Source of the DNA: a virus
Length of the DNA: 64,000 nt
Direction: 5' to 3' (one strand)
Virus record (IMG/VR): IMGVR_UViG_3300030085_004825
Span: 1 to 64,000 of that record
The translations under genes and the position numbers were made by a program. This document shows, piece by piece, positions 25,976 to 53,487 of the stretch (position 1 is its first letter; every line of letters begins with the position of its first letter). The notes under the pieces are model-generated. The model was not told the origin of the DNA, made no database searches, and was given only the letters and a program-made list of their open reading frames with translations.

Positions 25976-27292
25976 ATGAGTAACATAAATGAAGCAGACC
26001 CTAAAAAAGGCACAGGTAAAAAACCTAAAGGATCAGGTAGACGTCTATACACAGATGAAGATCCATCTGATACAGTTAAAGTTAAATTTTCTACAAGACA
26101 AGATATAGTAGATACTTTAAATAAAAAATCTTTTAAAGCTAAATCTCATGCTCGCCAATCTCAGATTATTAATTTAATACATCAAAGAGTAAGAGCTGCT
26201 TTAAGTAGAACTAAAGATCCTAAAAAGAAAACTAAACTACGTTCTGCTTTTGAATACATTAAAAAACGTAAAGAAGCGTCTAAGAAAAAAACCCAACGTT
26301 TAAAAAAGGAAAATATTGACCCCAAGGCACAATCTAAACATAAAGGCAAAGCAGCACCATTTGGCTCAGCATATGAACCACTAAATGAAAATGCTACATA
26401 CTCTAATCATATAGATTATAAACAAGAAATTAAGGATTTAACAAAACATATGTTAAAAAAAGGTATGAATATCCAACCTTTACCTAAAGTAATATTTAAA
26501 CATAATGATAAAGAAAATGCTCAAGAATTTTTAGGTAGAACTGCTTATTATAATCCTAATAACATGACAATAGTTTTATATACTGAAGGTAGACATCCTA
26601 AAGATATAGCTAGATCATATGCACATGAAATGATTCATCATATTCAAAAATTAGAAGATAGATTAGAAAATATTTCTACTACTAATACTCTTGAAGATGA
26701 CCATTTAAATAATATAGAAAGAGAAGCATATACAAAAGGTAATATGGTTTTTAGAAACTATACAGATGGAAAAGATGGAGAAGAAGTTACTAGTTTAAAT
26801 GAAGGACCACAATTTGGAATATTATACCACTATACAGAATACTTATTAGATGTTTTAGATGATAATATGCTAAGGGGCCCAATAAGTTTAACACGTAGTA
26901 GAGATTCGTTTGTTAAAGATTGGATAGGGAGTGTACCTATTTTAGTATTAGATAAAGATAAATTACGTAATAATTATAAAATAAGACCCTATCAATCATA
27001 TGATGATGATGGTGGGTCCGAAGATGAAATGGAGGAGGTAATAGATAGAGATATTACAAATTTAAATAAATATATTATTAAAGTAATACTACCTAAACCA
27101 AATGAAGAATATGAAGATGCTTTAAAAGAAAAAGGTATACCTTATGAAATAGATAAACCATTAAACGAAAAGAAAAAACCATACAAACATAAACATGGTT
27201 TTGATAAAAATTTAGGTAAAGACCCTTTTGGTTTAAATCAATTTGCTAGAGAATTAGCTAGTTTAGAAGAAACCCCCCAAACCAAAAAATAA
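25976..27292 (+). CDS. multi-domain protein: basic domain, HExxH metalloprotease, possible ART-like domain
   Basis: This 438-residue protein has three parts. Residues 7-138 are very basic, with LYTDEDPSDTVKVKF, and could bind DNA. Residues 139-276 hold AHEMIHHIQ (H217, E218, H221) and a later NIEREAYTKGN, where E250 could be the third ligand of a zinc protease. Residues 277-398 have LYHYTEYLL, ISLTRS (303-308), VLDKDKLRNNYKI and DEMEEVI (350-356), an arrangement that resembles ADP-ribosyltransferase folds (H, ST, E). INE-A (6), LNE-N (138), LNE-G (276) and LNE-K (398) lie at or near the part borders and fit the (I/L)xE prohead-protease pattern. I infer a head-packaged protein cut into effectors. 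The protease motif is clear, the ART assignment tentative. Confidence 0.7.
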   Translation: MSNINEADPKKGTGKKPKGSGRRLYTDEDPSDTVKVKFSTRQDIVDTLNKKSFKAKSHARQSQIINLIHQRVRAALSRTKDPKKKTKLRSAFEYIKKRKEASKKKTQRLKKENIDPKAQSKHKGKAAPFGSAYEPLNENATYSNHIDYKQEIKDLTKHMLKKGMNIQPLPKVIFKHNDKENAQEFLGRTAYYNPNNMTIVLYTEGRHPKDIARSYAHEMIHHIQKLEDRLENISTTNTLEDDHLNNIEREAYTKGNMVFRNYTDGKDGEEVTSLNEGPQFGILYHYTEYLLDVLDDNMLRGPISLTRSRDSFVKDWIGSVPILVLDKDKLRNNYKIRPYQSYDDDGGSEDEMEEVIDRDITNLNKYIIKVILPKPNEEYEDALKEKGIPYEIDKPLNEKKKPYKHKHGFDKNLGKDPFGLNQFARELASLEETPQTKK

Positions 27293-27930: not shown

Positions 27931-28665
27931 ATGAAAGATAACTTTAATCTAAAAAAGTTTTTAACGGAAAATAAAACTATTGAAAATTCTAATCCTTTTT
28001 TAAAAGAAGCAAAAGAAAGCAAAGAAAAATTTAATAAAAGCAAATTAGAAAAAGCTATTAAAGCTGTACTTAAAAAAGAGGGTGGAGCTGCTGGTTTAAA
28101 ACCTTTGGTTGATGCTGCTAAAAAATTAGGAGCAGAAAAAAAGGATTTAATGGGTATTCTTAAAAAAATGTCATCTGTTGAAAAGCATAGACATGGTGAT
28201 TATATTTTAAAAGAAAATCTTCAATCTAAAATTCGTGAAATGATTATTAACGAATTAAGTCCTAATATAGAAGATGAAGAACATTCATATTTAGATTATG
28301 ATGAAATAGAAGATAAAGGAGATGATATGAGCATCACAGCTCGACTTGGGTTAGATAAAACTGATGATTTTTTAATAGATGAACCTTTAGAAGAAGCTAA
28401 AGAAGATGAACCTGAAGAAGATGTTGAAACTGAAGAAACTGAAGAAGATGTTGAAACTGAAGAAACTGAAGAAGATGTTGACATTGACTCTGAAGGAGGA
28501 CTAGAAGATTTAGCAGCTGATGTAGAAGGTGATGAAGGTGACCTTATGAATAACTTAATGGGAGCTTTAAAAATAGCTAAAGGAATGAACAATGAAAAAC
28601 TTACTACCCAAATTGGAAATACTTTAAAATTCTTTATAAGCGAATTTATATCAGATAAAGAGTAA
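27931..28665 (+). CDS. acidic repeat protein with FNLKKF leader, 244 aa
   Basis: This 244-residue protein begins with NFNLKKFLTEN, the same leader type as the next gene and as the one at 32504. LTE-N (13) and LKE-A (26) fit prohead-protease sites. A basic helical domain (about 30-110) is followed by a very acidic region made of a nine-residue repeat rich in EEDVETEET (about 163-184). The IREMIINEL helix near 100 resembles the leaders of other proteins in this block. The composition is like T4 scaffold or internal head proteins. It is probably co-transcribed with the next gene, 13 bases downstream. Confidence 0.7.
   Translation: MKDNFNLKKFLTENKTIENSNPFLKEAKESKEKFNKSKLEKAIKAVLKKEGGAAGLKPLVDAAKKLGAEKKDLMGILKKMSSVEKHRHGDYILKENLQSKIREMIINELSPNIEDEEHSYLDYDEIEDKGDDMSITARLGLDKTDDFLIDEPLEEAKEDEPEEDVETEETEEDVETEETEEDVDIDSEGGLEDLAADVEGDEGDLMNNLMGALKIAKGMNNEKLTTQIGNTLKFFISEFISDKE
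28417..28482 (+). repeat. 27-base tandem repeat coding acidic residues
   Basis: Two perfect 27-base units (28417-28443 and 28444-28470) begin GAAGATGTTGAAACTGAAG, followed by a 12-base partial unit. It probably arose by slippage, and copy number may vary among relatives. Confidence 0.85.
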
Positions 28666-28678
28666 AAAACTTTAACAA

Positions 28679-31600
28679 ATGGATAAGTTTAATTTAAAAG
28701 AATATCTTTATAATAATCCACTTTATTCTACTTCTTCTCAAAATATAGAAGAAAAAAATTTAGTAGAAGCTTTAGCTCTTATAAAAGAATTAGGTTTAAA
28801 CGTTGATAATAAAATTCTAAATGAAGGTTTAAAAGATTTTGTAAGTAATGTTAAATCTAAACTAAAAGACTTAAAACCCACAGAACGTTTATTAGCTACT
28901 TTATTTGCTAAAATAAAAAAAGGTTTACCAAAAGAAGTTAACATAAAAAAATTCCTTACTAATTTAAATCAATGGGCTAAAGAAAATAAAGGGAAAATAA
29001 CAAATGAAACTCTTAAAGATTTTCTTTCTACCCAAGATAGTAAAGAACTAAACGAAATAATCCTCTCAGATACTGCTAGTAAAGTAGGTAGTTGGTTTTT
29101 ATTAACTCTAAAAACAACTGCTTTAGTTTTATCACTTCTTACTCCTGCCACAGCTCAATCTTCTATAGATGATTCTGAACAAGATATTAAAAAAATAGAA
29201 ATTTCAGCAGACGATTCAGGTGAATCTTTAGAAGGTGGAGATTCTATTAATAGTGAAGATGTAGCTAAAGAACTTAATGTCCAAGATAAAATCCAAGATC
29301 TTATATCCACAGACTCAGAATCTGACGCTGTTAAAATTTCTTTTGATACTGGAGAATTTAAAACTAATACTGATTCTTATGGTAATGATATATTTAAGAT
29401 GTTAGAAAATGATCTTAAGAATACTAAAAACATAGGAGAAGATGGAGAAGGATATAGCATTGATCTTGAACACTCTGGAAACATATCCAACACACCAGGA
29501 GCCCAAGATGATAACCCAGATGGTCCTGATAAAACAGGTTTAGGAGATAAAAGAAATCAAGCTGCTAAAGAAGGCGCTGAAAAAGGGGTTAAAGAATTTT
29601 TAAAAAAATACCCTAAAGCTAAAGTAAAAATTATTGATGGGGGAACAAATGTAAGTGATCCTGGAGAAGAAGTAGATTTTGATTCTTCTGAAGCTAAAGA
29701 TAAACAAACTTCAATTGTAAAAATAACTAATAAAGATATCCCTCAAGATCAAGATCAAGAATCTGATTCAAAACCTATAGCTTCCCCTGAAGATTTAACT
29801 GCTTTTTATGCTGATAAACCTGTATATAATGGTAGTAGATATATGTCTATTTTATTTCATATTTTACCTAGAATAACAGATAGAGAATCTTTTGAATCTG
29901 TTATTAAAACTATAGGAATAAAAAAAGGAGAAGTAATTAGTGATAGTTTTATAAAAAGAAAATTAGCTGAATTAGAAAAAAAGAAATCAGAAAAAGGAGC
30001 TAACCAAGAAGAAATAGATAATGCTATTAAAACTTTATATTGGACTCGATCTTCTAAAAAAGCTCCATCTACTCTTCTTAATCAATTAAAAAAATTAACA
30101 GATAAAGACCCTAAATTAAAGGATAAAATAGGAGATAGACAAAAATATATTCTCACTAAACCTGGAAAAGCAGGACAAGCTGCCGTTTTAAGAGGAACAG
30201 GAGAAAAAATAGGAGATAAACAAAAAGTTGGCCCACAAATAGGTACAACTAAAAAAGGAGACGATTTAATGGAAACAGTTTCTCTTTTATCTCTTTTATT
30301 AGAAGCTAAAAGTGATTTTGATTATTTACCTTTTTATAAAGAAGATATAGCCACCCAAAATTTAGGTTTTCTTATACCATTTTATGCTGGCATTTGGCCA
30401 GGTGAAGATGAAGATTATATAGCTAGTGCTTTAGATGTTTTTGCTGATAATAGTAAAGATAATTCTTATAAAAGCAGTTTTAGAGAATTTACTAAATTTC
30501 CTGCTTTAACTCAAATTATAAATGATAAATATAAAAAGTTTGATAAAGATCTTTCTAAAACTCAAGATAAAAAACAAGAACCATCTAAAGATGTTAAGAG
30601 AAAAACTATCCCTGCTTCTAAATTATATAATATTATACAAACTACAACCGATGGTAAAGTTACAGTTTACTGGGGAAAGAATAAAAAAGATGAAGATTGG
30701 ATAAATTTAAAAACTGTAAATAATAAAGATTTAAACCCTGAAAAAGATGTAGCTCAATTTATAGGGCCTAATACTAAAATTGATAAAAAATCTGTAACAC
30801 TTTATAGAGATTTTGATACTAAAGATACTCCTACACAAAAAGATGTAGTCGATATAGATAAAAAATTAGATTCTAAAAAGAATATTGATAAATCTTTTAA
30901 ATTTGTAAACAATAAAGAGGAATTAGAAGATTTATTAATATTATTATTATCTAAAGTTAGTGATGAAAATGATGTAGATTCAAAAACTATAAAAAATTAT
31001 CTTCTTCAAATTGTACAAAGATTAGATGCTAAAGGAGAACCTGAACCCTCATCTACATCAACCTCTGGTACTAAAATAACATATGATTACGTGAAAGAAG
31101 ATAATACTAAAGATGTTGAAAGAGTTAATAAAAATATATCTAACTTTACAGCCCTAAACCCAGCAACAGCTAAAATTAATACTAGAGAAGAAATAATCCA
31201 ATACATACTTAGAGTAATCCTCCCAGAATTAAATCCACAATTTTTAAAAAAATCAAGTGATATAAAACAAGCGATTAGGAATGCTTTAAAAAATTATCCT
31301 AGTAAAGAAAACTTAAATGAAGCGTTTACTCCTGAAGAGTCTAAAAAAATATATGATAACTTTTTATCTATAATTGCAACTCGAAGAAACAAATTAGTTA
31401 AAAATTATGGCCCTGAAGCTGAAAAAGTAGCATATGCTACAGCTGTTAAACAAATTAATAAAAAAGCAAAAGAAAAACCTATGGAAAAAGAAATTGAAGA
31501 AGGTACTTGTGGGTATGGTATAGATGGAGAAATTGGAGATACACCAGCTGGCCCAGATATGATGATTAAACTTAAAGAAATGGTTAAAGATGCTTTAAAA

Positions 31601-32038
31601 AAACCCGTATCTGAAAAGTTTACTTCAAAACATGATGATAAATTTGATGATAAACGTAAGAATTTACCTGATGGTTTACAAAAAGCTATCTTAAAAAAAC
31701 AAGGCAAATTAGATGAAGATTTAGACATAGGCCACCAAGACGATGAACCGGGTATGCTAAAAGCAGATTTATATCGTATTGGAAAATATGCTATGGAACT
31801 TTATAAAATGGTTGATAAGTTTGATAAAATGGATAGTGAAGTAGATTTCCCACATTGGTGGCAATCAAAAATATCCAAATCAAGAGGTATGTTAGTTGCT
31901 GCTAAACACTATCTTGATTTTGAAATGAAAGAACCTCAAATTGATGCAATGGTAGATGTTGCAAGTGAGGAAGGAGTAATTGATGAATCTAAGACTAAAA
32001 AACTAGCTGAAGCTATATTTAATAAACTTAGATCATGA
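28679..32038 (+). CDS. giant mosaic head-region protein, 1119 aa
   Basis: This 1119-residue protein begins DKFNLKEYLYNN, the leader type of its neighbours. LVE-A (30), LNE-G (49), LNE-I (126) and a later LNE-A (near 879) fit the (I/L)xE pattern. A hydrophobic segment at 137-158 ends in TPATAQSS, like a signal sequence. Residues about 215-350 look OmpA-like (SFDTGEFKTNTDSYGND, GLGDKRNQAAKEG). After that come lysine-rich helical regions. The end contains GHQDDEPGML and VDFPHWWQSKI, which I associate with a domain of many marine T4-like phages. It looks like several proteins joined in one frame. The function is unknown, and packaging with later cleavage is inferred. It overlaps the next gene by ATGA. 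Confidence 0.65.
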   Translation: MDKFNLKEYLYNNPLYSTSSQNIEEKNLVEALALIKELGLNVDNKILNEGLKDFVSNVKSKLKDLKPTERLLATLFAKIKKGLPKEVNIKKFLTNLNQWAKENKGKITNETLKDFLSTQDSKELNEIILSDTASKVGSWFLLTLKTTALVLSLLTPATAQSSIDDSEQDIKKIEISADDSGESLEGGDSINSEDVAKELNVQDKIQDLISTDSESDAVKISFDTGEFKTNTDSYGNDIFKMLENDLKNTKNIGEDGEGYSIDLEHSGNISNTPGAQDDNPDGPDKTGLGDKRNQAAKEGAEKGVKEFLKKYPKAKVKIIDGGTNVSDPGEEVDFDSSEAKDKQTSIVKITNKDIPQDQDQESDSKPIASPEDLTAFYADKPVYNGSRYMSILFHILPRITDRESFESVIKTIGIKKGEVISDSFIKRKLAELEKKKSEKGANQEEIDNAIKTLYWTRSSKKAPSTLLNQLKKLTDKDPKLKDKIGDRQKYILTKPGKAGQAAVLRGTGEKIGDKQKVGPQIGTTKKGDDLMETVSLLSLLLEAKSDFDYLPFYKEDIATQNLGFLIPFYAGIWPGEDEDYIASALDVFADNSKDNSYKSSFREFTKFPALTQIINDKYKKFDKDLSKTQDKKQEPSKDVKRKTIPASKLYNIIQTTTDGKVTVYWGKNKKDEDWINLKTVNNKDLNPEKDVAQFIGPNTKIDKKSVTLYRDFDTKDTPTQKDVVDIDKKLDSKKNIDKSFKFVNNKEELEDLLILLLSKVSDENDVDSKTIKNYLLQIVQRLDAKGEPEPSSTSTSGTKITYDYVKEDNTKDVERVNKNISNFTALNPATAKINTREEIIQYILRVILPELNPQFLKKSSDIKQAIRNALKNYPSKENLNEAFTPEESKKIYDNFLSIIATRRNKLVKNYGPEAEKVAYATAVKQINKKAKEKPMEKEIEEGTCGYGIDGEIGDTPAGPDMMIKLKEMVKDALKKPVSEKFTSKHDDKFDDKRKNLPDGLQKAILKKQGKLDEDLDIGHQDDEPGMLKADLYRIGKYAMELYKMVDKFDKMDSEVDFPHWWQSKISKSRGMLVAAKHYLDFEMKEPQIDAMVDVASEEGVIDESKTKKLAEAIFNKLRS

Positions 32039-32499
32039 CAAGAGAAGCACTACAAAATAGATTAAAAATTTTAATTAAACAAGTGTATGCTAATAAAAGA
32101 ATTACACCTGAAGAAGCTGTTCAATATGATGAATTGACTAAGTTTCCTGAATTAAAAGCTGTTATTGTAGATCTTTTAACACCTGAATATGATAATTTTG
32201 TAGCTTCAATTGATTGGGTTGCACCACGCCCTTCTACATTTAGAATTAATTTAAAAAATGATCAACTATTCTATTTAATTTATGGTAAAAGAAGTTTTAT
32301 TGCTCAAGTTGAAGGCAAAAAATATTACTTATTAAATCTCCCTGAAGAACAACATGCTGCAGAAGCTATTGCTCGCATTTTAAGATTTGGAACCCCAGTA
32401 GATGAAGAAAATACTGATAATTTAGGTGATAGTCCTGAAGAAGATTCTCCCCCACCTCCTCCAACAGAAGAAGATACAACAGAAGAACCTGAAACATAA
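32035..32499 (+). CDS. conserved head-region protein, 154 aa
   Basis: This 154-residue protein has an N-terminal helical half and a globular centre (FVASIDWVAPRPSTFRINLK, FYLIYGKRSFIAQVEGKKYY), then an acidic tail with five prolines in a row. I think a similar protein is common in marine T4-like phages. No function is known. It is translationally coupled to the giant gene upstream (ATGA) and lies just before the cysteine-rich gene. Confidence 0.75.
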   Translation: MTREALQNRLKILIKQVYANKRITPEEAVQYDELTKFPELKAVIVDLLTPEYDNFVASIDWVAPRPSTFRINLKNDQLFYLIYGKRSFIAQVEGKKYYLLNLPEEQHAAEAIARILRFGTPVDEENTDNLGDSPEEDSPPPPPTEEDTTEEPET

Positions 32500-32503
32500 T
32501 ATT

Positions 32504-32947
32504 ATGAAAAATTTTGATTTAAAAAAGTTTATAAAAGAAGGTAAATTATATGAAGCAGCAATGGCTTGTCCTACTGCTACTCAAAATCTTGAATTAAATA
32601 CCAAAAATAGAGATGCTTCCATCCAAGCAGAATACATCCAGTATGGTCCACTAAATGTAGATGAACCAGGAGACTATTGGAAAGATATAGCTGAATATTG
32701 GAATACAACAGAAGAAGCAGCTAGAAAATCATTATGTGGTAATTGTGTTGCTTTTGATATCTCTCCTAGAATGGATGAATGCATGCCCGGCCAAACATCA
32801 GATAAAGATGGAAGATTAGGATATTGTTGGATGCACCACTTTAAATGTCATTCTGCAAGAAGTTGTAGAACTTGGGCTAAAGGTGGTCCCATTGTAAAAG
32901 ATAGTGTATCTTATGACTGGCAAGAAAGAAACGCAGATAAAGTATAA
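32504..32947 (+). CDS. cysteine-rich conserved phage protein with FDLKKF leader, 147 aa
   Basis: This 147-residue protein starts at the ATG at 32504; the longer in-frame ORF upstream only overlaps the preceding gene. Its leader NFDLKKFIKEGKLYEAA has IKE-G (12) and LYE-A (17), possible prohead-protease sites. The body has C78/C81 (CGNC), C93, C108, H111/H112, C115 and C121 before the conserved CRTWAKGGPI, a likely metal site. The body resembles a cysteine-rich protein widespread in cyanophages and other marine T4-like phages. The presence of a leader on a known body suggests targeting to the head. Confidence 0.8.
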   Translation: MKNFDLKKFIKEGKLYEAAMACPTATQNLELNTKNRDASIQAEYIQYGPLNVDEPGDYWKDIAEYWNTTEEAARKSLCGNCVAFDISPRMDECMPGQTSDKDGRLGYCWMHHFKCHSARSCRTWAKGGPIVKDSVSYDWQERNADKV

Positions 32948-35060: not shown

Positions 35061-35918
35061 ATGGAACGATTAACTAATCTTATAAAAGAAGTATTATCCA
35101 CCAAACCAAAAGAAAAAGAAGGTTGTAATTGTGGGTGTGGTGGCTGTGATAAACCAGCTTCTAAAGGTATAACTTTAAATGAAAGTATAGCCCCCAAACA
35201 AATACTATCAGAAAATCTTCAATATCACGTACAAAATAAACTACCTTTAACTGAAAACACATTCCGTTATGGTTCTGAATCGTTTATTAATTTATGGGCA
35301 GAAGCTCGTTCTTTATACTTACGTGAAATTATTAATGTAAATGAAGATGATAAAGAAATTTTAAAAGAAACTGATTTAGGCAATTATGGAATATATGAAA
35401 ATATTAAAGTGCCCTTAGATATGCCTCTTTCAGTTAGAGCCAATGAAGTTCCTTTAATGAATATTTTAAGAAGAGCTGAAGAAAAAGGTCAAGAAGGATA
35501 CCCATTTTATAGAGAATTAGCTGATGAATTAAGACAAGAATCTATAGATTTGAACCGAGTTAAAGAAGTTTTAAGGGATTATGGTGTGTATTATGAATAT
35601 GAAGATCTTTTAAACTTAAATGAAGCAGCTAAAAAGAAAAAGAAAAAAGACCCACCTATAGGAAAACCAAAACGTGGGGGTTCTAAAGCATATTATGTTT
35701 ATGTTAGAGACCCTAAAACTAAAAAAGTAAAAAAAGTTTCATTTGGTTCTGGTGGGTTAAAAGCAAAAATTAATAACCCCAAAGCTAGAAAAGCATTTGC
35801 AGCTAGACATAAATGTGCTCAAAAGAAAGATAAAACAAAAGCATCATATTGGTCTTGTAGATTGCCTCGCTATGCTAAATTATTAGGTTTAAAATCATCC
35901 TTTAGTGGATTTTGGTAA
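35061..35918 (+). CDS. multi-domain head-region protein with internal LNE sites, 285 aa
   Basis: This 285-residue protein has a leader helix (MERLTNLIKEVLSTK), a cysteine cluster at 22-29 (CNCGCGGC), a domain with FRYGSESFINLWAEARSLY (68-86), and a basic C-terminal domain with PKRGGSKAYYVYVRD and KAFAARHKCAQKKD. The last two blocks look like separate conserved marine phage modules. LNE-S (41), LTE-N (65) and LNE-A (188) lie exactly between these parts, so prohead-protease cutting would release them. The next gene has the same kind of leader. The functions of the modules are unknown to me. Confidence 0.7.
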   Translation: MERLTNLIKEVLSTKPKEKEGCNCGCGGCDKPASKGITLNESIAPKQILSENLQYHVQNKLPLTENTFRYGSESFINLWAEARSLYLREIINVNEDDKEILKETDLGNYGIYENIKVPLDMPLSVRANEVPLMNILRRAEEKGQEGYPFYRELADELRQESIDLNRVKEVLRDYGVYYEYEDLLNLNEAAKKKKKKDPPIGKPKRGGSKAYYVYVRDPKTKKVKKVSFGSGGLKAKINNPKARKAFAARHKCAQKKDKTKASYWSCRLPRYAKLLGLKSSFSGFW

Positions 35919-35919
35919 A

Positions 35920-36354
35920 ATGGATAGATTAGAAAAAATAATTAAAGAAGTTCTTACTGAAAAAAAGAAAAAACGAGATAGATGCTTACGCATTGCTGAC
36001 CGTAAATTTAAAAAACCTTCAGCTTACAAATCAGGAGCTGTAGTTAGATGTAGAAAAGGGTCTATTTGGAAAGGATTAAAAGAAGAACAAATACGTGAAG
36101 TAGTTAAAGAATCTTTACGTGATTGGTTTAAAAAAGAAAAATGGGTTCGTATTAACACATCAGGTAATATAACTGGTCCTTGTGGTACAATGAAAAAAGG
36201 TAAAGCTACAACTCGTTGTTTACCTAAAGCTAAAGCACAATCTTTAACTAAAGCTGAAAGAAAATCAACTGTAGCTAAAAAAGTTAGAGGAGGTAAAAAA
36301 GGTAAACAATTTGTAAAAAATACTAAAAAAGCTGAATATAAAAAGAAGTCTTGA
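35920..36354 (+). CDS. basic protein with leader helix, 144 aa
   Basis: This 144-residue, very basic protein starts MDRLEKIIKEVLTEK, closely matching the leader of the upstream gene; this favours the ATG at 35920 over an upstream GTG at 35905. It contains RCLRIADRKFKKPSAYKSG and then WVRINTSGNITGPCGTMKKG with RCLPKAKAQSLTKAERKS, a conserved basic module of marine phages. The positive charge suggests binding to packaged DNA. LTE-K (14) follows the leader. Confidence 0.75.
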   Translation: MDRLEKIIKEVLTEKKKKRDRCLRIADRKFKKPSAYKSGAVVRCRKGSIWKGLKEEQIREVVKESLRDWFKKEKWVRINTSGNITGPCGTMKKGKATTRCLPKAKAQSLTKAERKSTVAKKVRGGKKGKQFVKNTKKAEYKKKS

Positions 36355-40860: not shown

Positions 40861-41079
40861 ATGGCTAAACTAATAGATTTACTAAATGAATCTTTTTATG
40901 ATTCAAATAAATTATATTCTAAACAATATATACTTAATGTTACGGCAAATGCACCACGAAATATTAAGGATGTAGTAAGAAATTTAAAAATTATTGATTG
41001 TGTTGATTCAAACAATAATAAAAAAGAATGTGTAAAAATACCAGAAGTTTTGTATATTTACATTAGTGGTAAATATTAA
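40861..41079 (+). CDS. small hypothetical protein, 72 aa
   Basis: This 72-residue protein begins MAKLIDLLNESFYD, with LNE-S at residue 10, the same tripeptide that marks possible prohead-protease sites elsewhere. The remainder has two cysteines and no known domain. It lies between the FAD enzyme and the P-loop protein. The function is unknown. Confidence 0.65.
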   Translation: MAKLIDLLNESFYDSNKLYSKQYILNVTANAPRNIKDVVRNLKIIDCVDSNNNKKECVKIPEVLYIYISGKY

Positions 41080-41650: not shown

Positions 41651-42454
41651 ATGAAAAAATCTCGTTTACTTGAAATTATTCGTGAAGAAATTTCCTCAAC
41701 TTTAAGTGAAGTTCCTTTCCCTGATGGACCTCTTGATGTTAAAAATCCTGAAGATATAGCAACTCGCCCTGAAGAGCGTGATGAAAAACCTCTTCAAGAT
41801 GCTATTAAAAGTGCTGTAGATATATTAAAAGCAGAATACCCAAATTTAACTAATGATGATTTAGCTAAATTAATTACTAAAGTTAATTCTGATAAAAATA
41901 GACAAGCTGATAAAGACATCAAACAAAAAACATCAGATGGAGAAACTCTAGAAATAGCAGCGGATTCTCAAATTGGAAAAGATTACAAAGCTGCTTTAAA
42001 TGCTATAGCAGATACTATAGAAGATCAAGCTGAAATATACCAAACAAATAAAATTGATGGTTTAATTAGTCAAAAAGGTGTTGATGCTAAAACAGTAGAG
42101 AGATTAGAAAAATTAAAAGAAAGAGGATATACTTATACTTTAGGATTTCCACAAACTTTAAAAGCAGTTGAAAGGGCAGTAGGTGGAGGTGCAACTAGAA
42201 AACCTTCTAAACCAAAAGCAGAAAAAGCAACAGCAACAGAACCAAAAGCAGAAAAAACAACAGCTTCTGAACCTAAAAATGATAGTTTATCTGATTTAAA
42301 AGATGAAGTAGCTAAAGTTACTACAAATATGAAAGATTTAGCTAAAAAATTCTCAAAAGCTGAAGGAGAAGAAAAAGAAGATTTAAAAAATCAACTTAAA
42401 GATCTAAACAAAAAGAAAAAAGAATTAGAAAAAGAATTAGAAAAACAACTGTAA
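41651..42454 (+). CDS. lysine-rich coiled-coil protein with leader helix, 267 aa
   Basis: This 267-residue protein starts with the leader-type helix LLEIIREEISSTLSE, with LSE-V at residue 20. The middle is helical, then a Lys/Ala/Glu/Thr-rich linker with the duplicated PKAEK-x-T motif (about 197-215) leads into a long coiled coil at the end (DLKDEVAKVTTNMKDL to the C-terminus). The composition suggests a head-core or internal protein. A small terminase is not excluded by its position two genes before the large terminase, but no such domain is visible. Confidence 0.65.
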   Translation: MKKSRLLEIIREEISSTLSEVPFPDGPLDVKNPEDIATRPEERDEKPLQDAIKSAVDILKAEYPNLTNDDLAKLITKVNSDKNRQADKDIKQKTSDGETLEIAADSQIGKDYKAALNAIADTIEDQAEIYQTNKIDGLISQKGVDAKTVERLEKLKERGYTYTLGFPQTLKAVERAVGGGATRKPSKPKAEKATATEPKAEKTTASEPKNDSLSDLKDEVAKVTTNMKDLAKKFSKAEGEEKEDLKNQLKDLNKKKKELEKELEKQL

Positions 42455-46724: not shown

Positions 46725-47579
46725 ATGCAAATTAAACATTCAAAGTATAAAAACACAGGTATTTTATTTGAATTATTAGTACGTCAAATTACAACGGATA
46801 CTTTAGAAAATAAAACTTCACCTGCTAAAGATATATTACAAAAATATTTTGTAAAATCTGAATTAGGAAGAGAATATAGACTATATGAATCTCTTTTAAA
46901 AAAAACCTCATTAACTGAAGCTAAAGCCTCTATTACAGTTTCTACTTTAGTTGAATCATCTAAATCATTAAATAGAGGAGCTATTAAAAGACAAAAATAC
47001 AATCTTATTAATGAAATTAAAAAACATTATGATTTAACACACTTTTTTAATCATAAACTTCCTAATTATAAGCCTTTTGCTGCATTTTATACTTTACTAG
47101 AATTAAATAATTCTACCACCCCAAACCCAGAACAATTAATTCAAAATAAAATTACTATTTTAGAACATTTAACTGTTGCTTCTATTAAAGAAAGTAAAGT
47201 TAGAGATGAGGTAATGGATGAAGTAAATAAATCTGATAAAGATACTAAACTTCTTACTTATAAAATTTTAATGGAAAAATTTAATGGTAAGTACGATAAT
47301 TTAGCATCAAAACAGAAATTAATTCTTAAAGAATATATTAACTCAATTGATAATGCTCCTCGTTTAAAAAGATTTTATACAGATAAAATATATGAAATTA
47401 AAAAGGAATTATTAGATTTAAATAAAGGTACTAAAAATAAAGTTACTAAAATAAAAATTGCTGAAGTTGTTTCTTTAATTAAGGTTCCATCTAAAAACTA
47501 TAAACTTAAAGATAAAGATTTAGTTGATTTATTGCAATATTGTGATTTAATAGACGAATTAGAAACAGCTAATGGATAG
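46725..47579 (+). CDS. conserved prohead-region protein, 284 aa
   Basis: This 284-residue helical protein begins QIKHSKYKNTGILFELLVRQ, a start I associate with a conserved protein found between portal and protease in marine T4-like phages. LTE-A near residue 65 fits a prohead-protease site. T4 has core proteins gp67 and gp68 at this place, so a core or assembly function is plausible. Its last 8 bases overlap the next gene. Confidence 0.75.
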   Translation: MQIKHSKYKNTGILFELLVRQITTDTLENKTSPAKDILQKYFVKSELGREYRLYESLLKKTSLTEAKASITVSTLVESSKSLNRGAIKRQKYNLINEIKKHYDLTHFFNHKLPNYKPFAAFYTLLELNNSTTPNPEQLIQNKITILEHLTVASIKESKVRDEVMDEVNKSDKDTKLLTYKILMEKFNGKYDNLASKQKLILKEYINSIDNAPRLKRFYTDKIYEIKKELLDLNKGTKNKVTKIKIAEVVSLIKVPSKNYKLKDKDLVDLLQYCDLIDELETANG

Positions 47580-48003
47580 AATTAAAGAAATAGTAAGAAA
47601 AAAATTAAAAGAAATGTCCGCTACTAACCAAAGTGGCGCTTCTTTTACCCCAGGTGAAGGGGCTAACTATGCTACTCCAACAGTTTTTAATAAAAATAAA
47701 AACGCTAAAGGAGCTAAAAATATTTATTATTATAAATTAGGATTTAAAAATGTTCCTAATATAAAACCTAAATCATACGACAAGAAAAAATTATGGGAAA
47801 TGAATGATTTCCAAAAACAACGTATAGCTGGGTTAGATGAAATTGAAAAATTAATGAATGAAATAACACCATTAGTTTCTAATGCAAAAAATGATACAAT
47901 TGAATTATATGGTGGAAACGTTGGTTCATATGATATCACACAACCAATAGAAATAGTTAAAAGCTATTTAAAAGAAATAAAAGAACTACTAACAGAAAAA
48001 TAA
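47572..48003 (+). CDS. prohead-region protein with capsid-like cleavage junction, 143 aa
   Basis: This 143-residue protein has a 14-residue basic leader (MDRIKEIVRKKLKE) followed by MSATNQSGASFTPGEG. In the capsid protein the predicted cleavage site is LVTE-A followed by SATNQGGGTFSVGQG. The similarity extends to the DNA. I infer that the leader is removed by the prohead protease after LKE and that the mature end resembles that of the capsid protein. The remainder has YYYKLGFKNVP and helical parts. An internal ATG at 47614 could give a leaderless form. Confidence 0.75.
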   Translation: MDRIKEIVRKKLKEMSATNQSGASFTPGEGANYATPTVFNKNKNAKGAKNIYYYKLGFKNVPNIKPKSYDKKKLWEMNDFQKQRIAGLDEIEKLMNEITPLVSNAKNDTIELYGGNVGSYDITQPIEIVKSYLKEIKELLTEK

Positions 48004-49851
48004 ATGAAAAAGACATTACAAGACCAGTATTTGTTAATTAAAGAAGGTAAAGGCCACAAAGACGTCTTTATTAAGGAAGCTAAACGACAGTTTCCTGGTT
48101 TAATTCGTAACGCTGCTACATATACAGAAGTAGCAAATGTACTTAAAACTAAAAATCTTATTAATGAAAACGTTGTTGGTTTAGAACCAATTAACCAATT
48201 ACAACCTTCTAAAAAAGAATCATTTGAAGTTGCTTTTGAAAACTTTTTAGCTGAAGCAAAGAAAGAACATTTTGATGATGAAAAAGCTGAACTTAAAAAA
48301 CCTTCAAAACAAGTAGAAGAAGATGCTGAAAAGAATTTTGACTATGAGGATAAGAAAAATCCTGATAATTTAATTTTTGATCAGATTATGAAAGGATACT
48401 ACACTGAAATGAAAGATCCTAAAAATGAAAATAAAACAATGGAACAATTAAAAGCCATTGTAATTAAAAATCTTGAAAAAAATCCTATATATTACACTGA
48501 AAAAGGTCAATTCGGTGTAAAAGATTTAGGGTATGCAGTAGACCATCCTGGTTTAGGTGAACCAAAAGAACCTAAAGGAAAATACAAGTCAAGTGGATAC
48601 GGTGATTTAAAAGAGTCTATTCAACCAAAACTTAAAAAAGATGAAGCATCTAAATTATTTGATTACCATGAAAGAACAGGAATACTTCCCCAAGATATAA
48701 CTCCAGAAGAATATAATGAAATAATGTCATATTATGGTATTAAAAGAGATAATGAGGATTTTACTGACCCTTCAGGTGGGAGTGGTTTACATAGCCACTT
48801 AGAAGAAGCTAAATTGCGTAAAGTAATCCGTGAAATGGTTGATTCTGAATTAGAAGAAATGATCAACATCAACCCAGTAAGTGGTGGTGGTGGTAGACGA
48901 AAAATACCTACAAATTATCTTTTACCTGATTCAATTATTAGTAAACTTAATTTAAGTAACCCAGGCCCTAATGCCCCTACATATGATGAATCAGCACAAA
49001 TTCCCCACATTAAAGTATTTTCTAAAGGTGAAGAGGTAATTCTTGCTATATCTGATTTAATGTATATTGCTTTAAAAGGAGTAACAAGAGGTAGATCTAC
49101 AAGAGCTCAAAATGTTGCTAAAGCTACCTTACAAAAAATCCAAGATAATTTTACTGAAAAAGATTGGCCAGCAATTAGAGCATTAATCAAGAAATTTACT
49201 GATGACAGAATTTCAGAATTACCAGTTAAAGGACAAATGAGACCTTACCATATGGTATCCTTCCCTGAGGGGTATTCATTAAAAATAGTTGATGATGGTA
49301 TAATGATAGACTTACCCCCCTATAAACCAGATACTCTACCAGAAGCTAAAATACGAAAAGTAATTAAAGAAAATGTTAATAAAGAATTAGCTGAAATTAA
49401 TAAATTAGCTGAATATGAAGTGTATGAATCTAAATTAGCTAAAATTATGGAGTTAATTGAAAAGAAAAATTCATTTCTTGAAAGAATTAACGAAGATGAA
49501 GACATGAAAGCTTTAACTGATAAAAAGAAAGTTAAAGAACTTAAAAAAGATGTTAAAATTTTAGAAAGAGCTAAAGCTAAAATTGAAAAAGCACTTGCTA
49601 AAGAAGCTAAAAAAATTAAATCTATTCCTAAAAAAGAAGTAATTGATGAAGATGAACCACTTGAAGAATTTGATAATTCTACTGAACAAGCTAAAGAATT
49701 AGATCAAACAGTTGGAGAATTAAACCCAGAAATAGAAAAATTAAAAGATACTATTGATTCTCTTGAAGAAAACTATTCTGAACCATCTGATGAAGATGAA
49801 GACGTAGAGCCGGATTGGGAATGGTTAAATGATATAAGAAGAGGAAGATGA
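48004..49851 (+). CDS. large prohead-core-type protein, 615 aa
   Basis: This 615-residue protein opens with LQDQYLLIKEGKGHKDVFIK, which seems conserved in marine T4-like phages. It holds several possible cleavage sites: LAE-A (in ENFLAEAKKEH), LEE-A and LPE-A, the last two each followed by nearly the same helix (KLRKVIREMVDSELEE and KIRKVIKENVNKELAE). The C-terminal third is a long charged coiled coil with a very acidic end. The composition and position before gp21 suggest a core protein degraded or trimmed during head maturation. It overlaps the gp21 gene by ATGA. Confidence 0.7.
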   Translation: MKKTLQDQYLLIKEGKGHKDVFIKEAKRQFPGLIRNAATYTEVANVLKTKNLINENVVGLEPINQLQPSKKESFEVAFENFLAEAKKEHFDDEKAELKKPSKQVEEDAEKNFDYEDKKNPDNLIFDQIMKGYYTEMKDPKNENKTMEQLKAIVIKNLEKNPIYYTEKGQFGVKDLGYAVDHPGLGEPKEPKGKYKSSGYGDLKESIQPKLKKDEASKLFDYHERTGILPQDITPEEYNEIMSYYGIKRDNEDFTDPSGGSGLHSHLEEAKLRKVIREMVDSELEEMININPVSGGGGRRKIPTNYLLPDSIISKLNLSNPGPNAPTYDESAQIPHIKVFSKGEEVILAISDLMYIALKGVTRGRSTRAQNVAKATLQKIQDNFTEKDWPAIRALIKKFTDDRISELPVKGQMRPYHMVSFPEGYSLKIVDDGIMIDLPPYKPDTLPEAKIRKVIKENVNKELAEINKLAEYEVYESKLAKIMELIEKKNSFLERINEDEDMKALTDKKKVKELKKDVKILERAKAKIEKALAKEAKKIKSIPKKEVIDEDEPLEEFDNSTEQAKELDQTVGELNPEIEKLKDTIDSLEENYSEPSDEDEDVEPDWEWLNDIRRGR

Positions 49852-50480
49852 GTAAAGAACTCTTAATAGAAACTAGACAATTTAAACCAAGTCCTGTTCA
49901 ACTTGTAGAAGGGTTAAACAGAGGTGGAAACATTTTTGTTGAAGGTATCCTAGCTACTGTTGAAGTTAAAAACGGTAATGGTAGATACTATAAAAAAGAG
50001 TTATGGGAGCGTGAATTAGCAAACTTTCAAAAGAAAATAGATCAAAAATCAACTGAAACGTGTGGTGAATTAGATCATCCTGACTCTCAAATAATTAATT
50101 TAAAAAATGCATCGCATGCTATTAGAGAAATAAGATGGGATGGTGATGAAATTTTAGGTACTGTTGAAATATTTTGTGATCCCGGAGATAAAGGAACTGA
50201 ATCTGGCCGTATAGCAGGAGCATTAGTTAAAAATGGTTTAATTATAGGTATATCTTCTCGTGGAATGGGTTCACTAAAACAAATGGGTGAAGTAATGGAA
50301 GTACAAGATGACTTTGAATTACTTACTTGGGATTTAGTATCTAACCCATCAAACCCAGATTCTTGGATGAAAAATGGTCAATTAAATGAATCTAGATCTA
50401 CATTCCTTCATCCATATGCGCGCACTAATTCAATTATTACCGAAATATTATGCGCTAAGGGCACCTGTCCTGTAATGTAA
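49848..50480 (+). CDS. 21: prohead core protease (gp21)
   Basis: This 210-residue protease has the expected motifs: FVEGILATVEVKNGNGRYYK, CGELDHPDS with catalytic H77, and LIIGISSRGMGSL with the catalytic serine at 136 or 137, plus VSNPSNPDSW. It is a herpesvirus-protease-like serine peptidase that cuts scaffold, core and capsid proteins at (I/L)xE-(A/G). The protein itself carries QLNE-S at 181, a possible autocleavage site. It is followed by a structured gap and the scaffold gene. Confidence 0.92.
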   Translation: MSKELLIETRQFKPSPVQLVEGLNRGGNIFVEGILATVEVKNGNGRYYKKELWERELANFQKKIDQKSTETCGELDHPDSQIINLKNASHAIREIRWDGDEILGTVEIFCDPGDKGTESGRIAGALVKNGLIIGISSRGMGSLKQMGEVMEVQDDFELLTWDLVSNPSNPDSWMKNGQLNESRSTFLHPYARTNSIITEILCAKGTCPVM

Positions 50481-50608: not shown

Positions 50609-51778
50609 ATGGCAACAAACAGAGATTTGCTTAAAGAAGCAATCGCAGATGCTAAAGCTGTAAAAGAAATGGCAATAGCAAACGCTAAAGAAGCTTTAGA
50701 AGAAGCCTTTACACCTCGTTTAAAAGAAATGTTATCTGCTAAAATCCAAGAAATGGAATATGAAGAAGATGATGTTAAAGAAATGAAATCTTACGATGAA
50801 GATGATTCTAAAATGGAAGAAGCTATGCATGACGAAGATGATTCTAAAGATAGTATGGAAGAAATGAAATACGAAGAAGATGATTCTAAAAATAGCATGG
50901 AAGAAGACATAGACGAGATGAATTTGGAAGAACTATTAGCTGAATTAGAAGAAGAAGAAAAAGTGGAAGAAGGAAAAAAATCCGACGACGAAGAAAAAGT
51001 AGAAGAAGGAAAAAAATCCGACGACGAAGAAAAAGAAGATGTTAAAGAAGCTATGGATGAAGAAGATGATGACATGGCTGGTGATGACATGGATGAAGAA
51101 GGAGAACCACTTGATCTTGAGGACATGACTGATGAAGACCTTAAAAAGATGATTGAAGACGTAATCGCTGACATGATTGAATCAGGGGAACTTGAAGCAG
51201 GTGAAGGCGCTGAGGAAGAATCAGAAGAAGAAGGTGAAGAAATGGAAATGTCTGATGAAGAAGAAGTTGATTTAACAGAATTATTGAAAGAAATTGAAGC
51301 AGAAGAAATTTCTGAAAGGAAAAAAAGTAGTGCTAAAAAAGATGCTACTAAAAAAGATGCTGCTGAAGAAGAAGTTGAAGACACTAAGAAAAAGCTTAAA
51401 GAAGCTGAACTTAAAATTGAATCTTTAGAAAATAAACTTCAAGAAAAGGATCTTCAATTAAATGAAGCTGTTAAAGAAACAAATACATCTAACTTGTTAA
51501 ATGCAAAACTTCTTTATTCAAATAAAATTTTCAAGTCTAAAAACTTGAATGAAAGTCAAAAAGTGAAAGTATTAAGTTCGTTTGATAAAGCAAATACCGT
51601 TAAGGAAGCTAAATTAGTGTACGAAACTTTAAGCGAAGGTTTAAAAGTTAAAAAGAACACTATTAAAGAAAACTTAGGTAGAGCTTCTAAAACAACAACA
51701 ATACCAACAACTAAAAAACCAATTGTTGAATCTAACGAAGTATTCGCTAGAATGCAAAAATTGGCAGGTATTAAATAA
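50609..51778 (+). CDS. 22: prohead scaffold protein (gp22)
   Basis: This 389-residue protein is extremely acidic and helical, with many Glu/Asp runs, a coiled coil (about 255-290) and a conserved C-terminus FARMQKLAGIK. These features and the position between protease and capsid gene fit T4 gp22. It has many (L/V)KE-A and LEE-A sites (LKE-A at 10, LEE-A at 32), as expected for a protein degraded by gp21. Two copies of a 12-residue repeat (KVEEGKKSDDEE) lie near residue 118. Some lengthening relative to T4 gp22 (269) is due to the acidic region. Confidence 0.88.
   Translation: MATNRDLLKEAIADAKAVKEMAIANAKEALEEAFTPRLKEMLSAKIQEMEYEEDDVKEMKSYDEDDSKMEEAMHDEDDSKDSMEEMKYEEDDSKNSMEEDIDEMNLEELLAELEEEEKVEEGKKSDDEEKVEEGKKSDDEEKEDVKEAMDEEDDDMAGDDMDEEGEPLDLEDMTDEDLKKMIEDVIADMIESGELEAGEGAEEESEEEGEEMEMSDEEEVDLTELLKEIEAEEISERKKSSAKKDATKKDAAEEEVEDTKKKLKEAELKIESLENKLQEKDLQLNEAVKETNTSNLLNAKLLYSNKIFKSKNLNESQKVKVLSSFDKANTVKEAKLVYETLSEGLKVKKNTIKENLGRASKTTTIPTTKKPIVESNEVFARMQKLAGIK
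50954..51025 (+). repeat. 36-base tandem duplication in the scaffold gene
   Basis: Two 36-base units (50954-50989 and 50990-51025) differ in one base. Their near identity indicates recent duplication. Confidence 0.9.
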
Positions 51779-51807: not shown

Positions 51808-53487
51808 ATGTCAACAATTAATTCATTACTCGAAAACTCTGCAAATAGTTATAAAAACTTGCAGAGCGATGCTGCTAAAATGGCATCAAAATGGGGTAAA
51901 ACCGGATTGTTAGAAGGTCTCGGAGGCGAGATTGAAAAAAACAATATGGCGATGATCCTCGAAAACCAAGCTAAACAGCTTGTAACTGAAGCTTCTGCTA
52001 CTAACCAAGGTGGCGGTACCTTTTCAGTAGGACAAGGTGAACAATGGGCTGGTGTAGCACTTCCATTGGTAAGAAAAGTATTTGGATCTTTATCTACTAA
52101 AGAATTCATGTCTGTTCAACCAATGAACCTACCTTCAGGTCTTGTATTTTTCCTTGATTTCCAATATGGACAACAAAAAGAACTAGACTTCGGTCCTGCA
52201 GGAGATGTTTATACTGCTGGTTCTTCAATGTATGGTAATACTGACCCAGGTGCTAATGCTGACCCATCAGGTGGTCTTTATGGTGCTGGTAGATTTGCTT
52301 ATTCAATTAACCAAAGATCAGCTTCATTAGACGGTACTATTTCTTCAGCTACTTGGGCACAAGTTGATTATGATTCTGCTAAATCTGCTTCTATAGCAGC
52401 AGGAGTTACATATTCAGCGGTTGCTATTGATATGTCAACGTTAACTGGATCTGGTGCTACAAACCCAGATTTTAAAGGAGCTAGAGCATTTACTGCTACT
52501 TCAGCTTCTATTGCTACAACTTCAAATATCTTACCACAATATACTTCTGTTAATGCAGCTACTGGTACTGTAACATTTATTTATGAACAATCTTCAGCTT
52601 CATTTGCTGATTTAGATGAGCCATTCTATGTTACTTATAACCTACAACCAACTGATAACAACAGAGGTGATTTTGAAGATACTACTGGAGGTGGATTCCC
52701 TAATGCTGAATCAACAACTGCTGATCAATTAGCAATCCCTCAAATTGATATCAAAATGAAATCTGAAGCTATTGTTGCTAAAACACGTAAGTTAAAAGCA
52801 CAATGGACACCAGAATTTGCTCAAGATTTGAACGCTTACCAATCTTTGGATGCTGAAGCGGAATTAACTTCAATCATGAGTGAATATATTGCATTAGAAA
52901 TTGATTTGGAAAACTTGGATATGTTGATTCAAGATGCATCTGCTGCTGATGAGTATTGGTATGCACAAAACAATAGAGTTCTAAATGCTAACAGTGATGG
53001 ATATGATAATCCTGGATTCTTTAATACACAAGGACAATGGTTCCAAACTTTAGGAACTAAAATGCAGAAAGTATCTAACAAGATTCACCAAAAGACCCTT
53101 AGAGGTGGTGCTAACTGGTTAGTATGTTCTCCATCAGTTGCTACAGTCCTAGAATCAATTCCTGGATTTGCTTCAACATCTGATGGTGATGCTGCAAAAG
53201 CGTCTTATGCATTTGGTATCCAAAAAGCAGGTAACTTGAATAACCGTTATACGGTTTACAAGAACCCATACATGACTGAAAATGTAATCCTAATGGGTTA
53301 TAGAGGTTCTCAATTCTTGGAAACAGGAGCAGTATTTGCACCATATGTTCCATTAATTATGACTCCTCTAGTATACGATCCAGATACATTTACACCACGT
53401 AAAGGTCTCTTGACTCGTTACGCGAAGAAGATGATTCGACCTGAATTCTTCGGACGTATCTTTGTAAATGATTTACATCAACTATAA
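51808..53487 (+). CDS. 23: major capsid protein (gp23)
   Basis: This 559-residue protein has a propeptide and the T4 gp23 body. QAKQLVTE-A (61/62) is the predicted gp21 cleavage site, close to E65/A66 in T4. Then come ALPLVRKVFGSLSTKEFMSV, QPMNLPSGLVFFLDFQYG, the FAQDLNAYQSLDAEAELTSI stretch and the C-terminal PYVPLIMTPLVYDPDTFTP with GLLTRYAKKMIRPEFFGRI. It forms the head shell. Codons here are more G/C-rich at some positions than in neighbours, as expected for a highly expressed gene. A terminator follows. Confidence 0.95.
   Translation: MSTINSLLENSANSYKNLQSDAAKMASKWGKTGLLEGLGGEIEKNNMAMILENQAKQLVTEASATNQGGGTFSVGQGEQWAGVALPLVRKVFGSLSTKEFMSVQPMNLPSGLVFFLDFQYGQQKELDFGPAGDVYTAGSSMYGNTDPGANADPSGGLYGAGRFAYSINQRSASLDGTISSATWAQVDYDSAKSASIAAGVTYSAVAIDMSTLTGSGATNPDFKGARAFTATSASIATTSNILPQYTSVNAATGTVTFIYEQSSASFADLDEPFYVTYNLQPTDNNRGDFEDTTGGGFPNAESTTADQLAIPQIDIKMKSEAIVAKTRKLKAQWTPEFAQDLNAYQSLDAEAELTSIMSEYIALEIDLENLDMLIQDASAADEYWYAQNNRVLNANSDGYDNPGFFNTQGQWFQTLGTKMQKVSNKIHQKTLRGGANWLVCSPSVATVLESIPGFASTSDGDAAKASYAFGIQKAGNLNNRYTVYKNPYMTENVILMGYRGSQFLETGAVFAPYVPLIMTPLVYDPDTFTPRKGLLTRYAKKMIRPEFFGRIFVNDLHQL

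Follow-up and report, generated by a model that had tools for sequence, protein, structure and literature searches.

Short, apparently removable N-terminal leaders on otherwise unrelated proteins of aquatic T4-like phages

Why should three neighboring genes of a virus, whose products have nothing else in common, all begin with much the same short peptide? We examined this in a window of 64,000 nucleotides (the whole stretch of DNA analysed here), which comes from a 122,391-base IMG/VR record with an S77 prohead protease inside.

A leader shared by unrelated proteins

A first-pass annotation of the window had reported a common leader on the genes at 27931, 28679 and 32504, and all three copies are indeed present, each at a gene start, with the consensus [NK]F[ND]LK[KE][FY][LI] (class A). 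In the first (27931..28008, + strand; gene 27931-28665, N-terminus MKDNFNLKKFLTEN), the leader reads MKDNFNLKKFLTE/NKTIENSNPFLKE/A, where slashes mark two candidate [LI]xE sites, and it is kept in relatives (MDNFDLKKFLKESKAIENLNP...). The second (28679..28825, + strand; gene 28679-32038, 1119 aa, N-terminus MDKFNLKEYLYNN) is the weakest copy: it reads K-E-Y and its first site is degenerate, without E (MDKFNLKEYLYNN...NIEE...ILNE/G), while an 81%-identical relative (L411) begins MDKFNLKRYLYNNPLYST. The third (32504..32554, + strand; gene 32504-32947, N-terminus MKNFDLKKFIKEGKLYEA) starts at a downstream ATG within an ORF listed from 32426 and precedes a Cys-rich body (MKNFDLKKFIKE/GKLYE/A). When all ATG, GTG and TTG starts in the 122,391 bases were searched with a relaxed regular expression, the record gave five class A leaders in total, all at gene starts; the two outside the window, at 117573 (MDNFNLKKYLAENKLETTKE) and 121755 (MDNFDLKKYLTESRLLKEEA), were absent from the first-pass annotation, as were the further leader classes and the scaffold link described below. 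A GroES/GroEL-like pair (G000, approximately 115341-117270; translations judged by eye) lies just 5' of the leader gene at 117573.

The pattern M[DEKN]NF[ND]LKK[FY]L.E, searched as degenerate DNA, matched at least 120 IMG/VR stretches, with up to four copies in each, and a scrambled pattern of the same residues matched none in IMG/VR; in the GTDB genomes (257 Gb) only 2 stretches carried it, both of them MAG contigs. Among 3,931 non-redundant ORFs (many of them from loci fetched by the motif itself), its frequency at protein starts was 67 times that at later methionines. We extracted 99 distinct class A proteins, two of them from the window's own record; their leaders come in a short version, MDNFDLKKYLAEGRLLKE/, and a long one, MDNFDLKKYLVENKVTTNSKMLNE/.

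The bodies behind the three leaders had been called unrelated, and counting the different bodies across phages had been proposed as a check. With the proteins cut at residue 27, 96 class A proteins fell into 74 families (blastp, E 1e-3) or 64 (E 0.1), so that dozens of unrelated bodies do follow this one leader. Pfam folds found behind leaders include an Fe/Mn superoxide dismutase (both Pfam domains, beginning at residue 15), a zeta-toxin-like kinase, an NT5C nucleotidase, a GNAT acetyltransferase, a sigma-70 factor and an HD phosphohydrolase; a zincin match stayed below the Pfam cut-off. Bodies resembling ADP-ribosyltransferases and protein kinases, picked by eye, had no Pfam or NCBIfam match and are therefore not claimed.

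It had also been noted that the third body occurs elsewhere without the leader, and this was confirmed by a leaderless 129-aa homologue in MW202701, annotated as a high potential iron-sulfur protein. Searches of Pfam, NCBIfam and PDB sequences lent no support to an iron-sulfur identity of the 32504 body, and an AlphaFold2 model of the protein (mean pLDDT 38, 4 sequences) was discarded, so the assignment rests on the annotation of homologues only. In Actinomycetia phage DSL-LC01, which has no S77, another homologue (OQ999401 63051-63785) lies directly before genes annotated as capsid maturation protease. S77 is absent from two phages that encode a homologue of this body: one of the homologues is leaderless, and the other has a longer N-terminal part, left unread.

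Further leader classes and their exchange

N-terminal scans of the fetched loci brought out three more leader classes: class B (MKKSELKQLIKEEI..LNE/; 82 IMG/VR stretches, with 73 bodies in 49 families), class C (MI.L.DLLKE, also written MI[KS]L..LLKE/) and class D (...RMQKLAGIITE/). With loose regular expressions, we counted 516 leader bodies in 244 families, 20 of them with two leader classes. As classes B and C consist of simple helices and the loose expressions also catch the large terminase, TerL, the class B and C counts and the totals of 516 and 244 are upper bounds; at least one of the approximately 20 two-leader families, TerL itself, is a false positive of this kind. The helical moment of leader A was not above that of the bodies (0.33 vs 0.44), unlike those of B and C, and an amphipathic helix was rejected for it, as was a T4 late-promoter consensus (TATAAATA), which was found 5' of only 1 of 99 leaders.

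Within the window, the additional classes are represented on the + strand by class B-like leaders at 35061..35105 (gene 35061-35918, MERLTNLIKEVLSTK; a match to the loose class only) and 35920..35961 (gene 35920-36354, with a DUF5872 body; MDRLEKIIKEVLTE/), a class C-like leader at 40861..40890 (gene 40861-41079, MAKLIDLLNE/S; again a loose match), and a class B leader at 41651..41710 (gene 41651-42454, MKKSRLLEIIREEISSTLSE/V) that is kept in relatives.

As judged by sequence comparison, one and the same body can stand behind different leaders, with the junction sometimes at [LI]-x-E. The zeta-toxin-like kinase follows leader A in one case and leader C in another, the pairwise alignment beginning at LLKE; an A/B pair of bodies is 52% identical, and an A/D pair gives a weaker match. 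The DUF5872 body, with its B-like leader in the window, has a class A leader in L212:399-830, and the NT5C-type nucleotidase family is found behind both B and C. The earlier term “portable” is well borne out, given the dozens of unrelated bodies behind the leader and the homologues of those bodies with another leader or with none.

Leader ends, head genes and the scaffold tail

Leader ends resemble sites of a prohead protease. A second [LIM]xE falls at residues 15-27 in 57 of the 64 class A body representatives, mostly at 17/18 or 23/24 (control windows gave 10.5, with a maximum of 19); after the core, [LIV]xE was present in 45 of 54 class B leaders (control 4.6) and in all 27 of class D (control 2.3). 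In T4, gp21 cleaves after L/I-X-E, and the propeptides of the capsid-targeting sequence (CTS) are 10-19 residues long (PMC9026906). Read from their residues, the leaders meet the description of peptides ending in a gp21-type L/I-X-E site; cleavage there is inferred.

The head genes of the window lie on the + strand and comprise a putative prohead core protein at the T4 gp67/gp68 position (48004..49851), the prohead protease of the Peptidase_S77/T4 gp21 family (49848..50480, E 6e-26), a scaffold protein at the T4 gp22 position (50609..51778) and a gp23-like major capsid protein (MCP; 51808..53487). The MCP has conserved predicted sites at GLLE/G, MILE/N and QLVTE/A, and cleavage at the last would release a 61-residue propeptide; that of T4 gp23 has 65 residues (PMC5694885). 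Class B-like helices occur inside the putative core protein (e.g., EEAKLRKVIREMVDSELEE), with 29 cores in 54 orthologues vs 2.3 in shuffled sequences. A segment of the 47572-48003 protein, SATNQSGASFTPGEG, is similar to one that closely follows the predicted MCP cleavage site, SATNQGGGTFSVGQG, and in L136:6222-6470 a class B leader is joined to a similar segment, SSTGTGATFTPGTG; this is possibly another shared head module.

The scaffold protein ends ...ARMQKLAGIK, and its C-terminal RMQKLAGIK (51749..51775, + strand) is the same peptide as the class D core. Of 64 loci, 59 have RMQKLAGI at the end of the ORF directly 3' of the protease; two inserted ORFs, one fusion to the MCP, one ORF cut short and one RMRKLAGII account for the other five. 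(The inserted ORF, MVKLCPTCK..., between protease and scaffold in L039 and L048 is possibly a homing endonuclease.) A scan of IMG/VR for RMQKLAGI, independent of any leader, found it at 91 extreme C-termini, at 23 N-termini (21 body families) and at 3 other places. On this sequence evidence, the class D leader is the scaffold's extreme C-terminal peptide. No such reuse of the scaffold tail was found in cyanophage S-SM2, where the gp22-tail YLRTL recurs at one other place only, on the opposite strand, and is no more frequent than a reversed control pattern.

The class A motif was found in none of the portal, core, protease, scaffold and major capsid proteins, and no known head protein carries the motif of either A or C. 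Every one of the 13 records with a leader and a length of 100 kb or more encodes S77, the window's record included (we have no base rate for large IMG/VR contigs); that the records without S77 are fragments is suggested, only weakly, by the absence of gp23, since the gp23 search matched no record at all. A leader gene lies immediately 3' of the protease in three genomes (G005, G012 and G014), and many other leader genes are distant from the head genes.

A cultured member of the group exists. Among 50,697 phage records searched by tblastn, Flavobacterium phage vB_FspM_immuto is the only isolate matched by the leader A peptide; the same kind of search found no class B leader in cultured phages. 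Leader classes A-D were assigned to about a dozen immuto genes, including gp087 (annotated deoxyribonucleotidase) and gp077 (annotated cob(I)alamin adenosyltransferase). Class A leaders were assigned to gp003, gp069, gp076, gp077 and gp092, class B leaders to gp080 and gp095, and class D leaders to gp083 and gp230. The phage is grown on Flavobacterium sp. LMO8 in the laboratory; immuto also encodes an S77 protease, and its scaffold-position protein ends RWQKLAGIIK.

Proposed capsid targeting and its alternatives

The suggestion that the leader is a capsid-targeting tag gains support, if only indirectly, from the protease-type leader ends, the co-occurrence with S77, the leader genes in the head cluster and a class D peptide identical to the scaffold tail. 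We consider it likely that the leaders are interchangeable, protease-removed capsid-targeting propeptides that load diverse proteins into the prohead: portability, leader exchange, the conserved [LI]xE sites, the class D/scaffold-tail identity and the S77 co-occurrence are observed, and docking, cleavage, packaging and ejection are inferred from them. Under this proposal the leader would dock its cargo on the prohead core or inner shell during head assembly, classes A-D filling the same role and being exchangeable; class D, carrying the peptide that ends the scaffold protein (RMQKLAGII), should bind the scaffold tail's own partner, and class B resembles helices within the putative core protein. 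The prohead protease would then remove the leader at [LI]xE, and the cargo would be packaged and later ejected. It is because one type of tag copies the scaffold protein's own tail that the tags probably load proteins into the head; packaging remains an inference because there are no virion proteomics or fusion data.

The leaders might instead dock to some other part of the virion (tail, baseplate or neck) or to a phage-made cell compartment, their [LI]xE ends being incidental. One loose class B protein (10912) does adjoin baseplate genes, its immuto homologue lies just 5' of a baseplate gene, and no binding partner is known for A and C. We nevertheless think this unlikely, with class D being the scaffold's own C-terminal peptide, class B-like helices over-represented in the protein that occupies the gp67/68 position, [LI]xE ends strongly enriched in A, B and D, and leader genes 3' of the protease gene in several genomes. 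A host-directed signal acting after infection (for secretion, membrane targeting or degradation) would also suit a leader that is short, N-terminal and apparently removable, but the leaders are charged and without a hydrophobic core (the best 12 residues have a mean hydrophobicity of -0.01 to 0.22), the class D peptide is C-terminal in the scaffold, and bacterial genomes contain next to no copies of the leader; such a role seems very improbable.

Hardly more can be said for a translation or expression cassette, in which a shared 5' region would help late expression and the peptide would be irrelevant. The DNA 5' of the leaders is A/T-rich and in some cases similar (TTATAACTAAAAC, AAAATAAAATAAA), but the variation in class A is concentrated at third codon positions (entropies of 0.22, 0.21 and 0.72 bits at the first, second and third) and 14 peptides are encoded by 64 DNA versions, which argues for selection on the leader peptide and not on a DNA cassette; further, four unlike peptides swap on the same bodies, and the leader terminates in [LI]xE. 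The notion of a single ancient family whose bodies diverged past recognition while the N-terminus was kept is scarcely tenable: it would explain why all members have the leader, and many of the bodies are indeed small, acidic and of unknown fold, yet the distinct folds (SOD, P-loop kinase, sigma-70, GNAT, HD and NT5C) go most of the way to refuting it, and bodies also occur with other leaders or with none.

Targeting to the prohead, the reading we favor, has its nearest parallel in the CTS of T4, which is carried by the internal proteins IPI-III and Alt and is removed by gp21 (PMC9026906, PMC3012670). Both are short peptides that sit at the N-terminus of unrelated bodies and end in L/I-x-E, and both occur in T4-like phages that encode an S77 protease. 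The differences are that the leader sequences are not those of T4 and form four exchangeable classes, that they usually have two [LI]xE sites and 17-27 residues, that one class is the scaffold C-terminal peptide, and that far more bodies, enzymes and a sigma factor among them, stand behind them, with packaging inferred. Homology of the leaders to MKTYQEFIAEA, the N-terminus of T4 ipII, could not be established, and a tblastn search with the ipII leader matched mainly enterobacterial phages, no Flavobacterium phage being named in the tally. That the leaders work like the T4 CTS is thus an inference by analogy, homology not having been shown.

Inner-head and ejection proteins of the giant phages phiKZ and SPN3US likewise have N-terminal propeptides, cut after x-x-E by an S77-related protease, and two diverged proteins, gp53 and gp54, are reported to share an identical 15-residue start (PMC5694885). 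The parallel extends to the propeptides, the sites and the protease, but their propeptides are mostly longer than 100 residues and protein-specific, with no report of a portable, exchanged tag. The scaffold tail invites a different comparison. In P22, a C-terminal segment of the scaffold protein binds the coat protein; here, too, the terminal scaffold peptide shows strong conservation and probably serves in an interaction, but unlike in P22-type scaffolds it is reused at the N-termini of cargo.

A large family of aquatic T4-like phages, then, equips hundreds of proteins that are otherwise unrelated with short N-terminal tags that appear to be removable, and we found no earlier report of these leaders in the literature searched (subscription papers and preprints were largely outside its coverage). 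On balance, though with less assurance than for targeting itself, we favor an open cargo-loading code, in which a cargo that is large and changes fast (redox enzymes, kinases, nucleotidases, sigma factors and unknowns) enters the heads by way of leaders that can be exchanged and are removed by the protease, one of them a copy of the scaffold C-terminus. If this is true, the injected proteins of uncultured phages, normally known only for the few cultured phages with virion proteomics, could be listed by sequence alone: each genome would contribute several tagged proteins, and the small sample studied here up to about 240 families. Uncultured aquatic T4-like phages are a large group, and a sequence-readable leader would name candidates throughout it and give annotations to short genes that resemble noise. 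Since class D and the scaffold C-terminus are identical, the long-standing question of the CTS binding partner becomes directly testable, and the leaders might be used to put foreign proteins into such heads in laboratory phages.

The superoxide dismutase, zeta-toxin-like kinase, nucleotidase, sigma factor, zincin-like and Fe-S-like bodies are noted as candidates for the injected set, which suggests that redox protection, transcription and nucleotide metabolism are all represented in the set. On a phage contig (L263:2131-2784), a class C leader precedes the Fe/Mn superoxide dismutase, which is a candidate packaged redox enzyme, and a sigma-70 family factor with a class A leader (L195:8509-9105) is possibly a pre-packaged transcription factor.

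The protein encoded at 25976-27292 in the window combines a zincin-like motif, HEMIHH (HExxH), with the segment KGTGKKPKGSGRRLYTDEDPSD; L263:2780-3427 and L198:10126 have similar segments preceded by class C leaders, and in L167:6961-7386 a class C leader is joined to the zincin-like part. Finally, runs of short adjacent genes that mostly differ in leader class or body, as in L262:9392-13199, L182 and L283:2163-5287, are read as cargo gene clusters.
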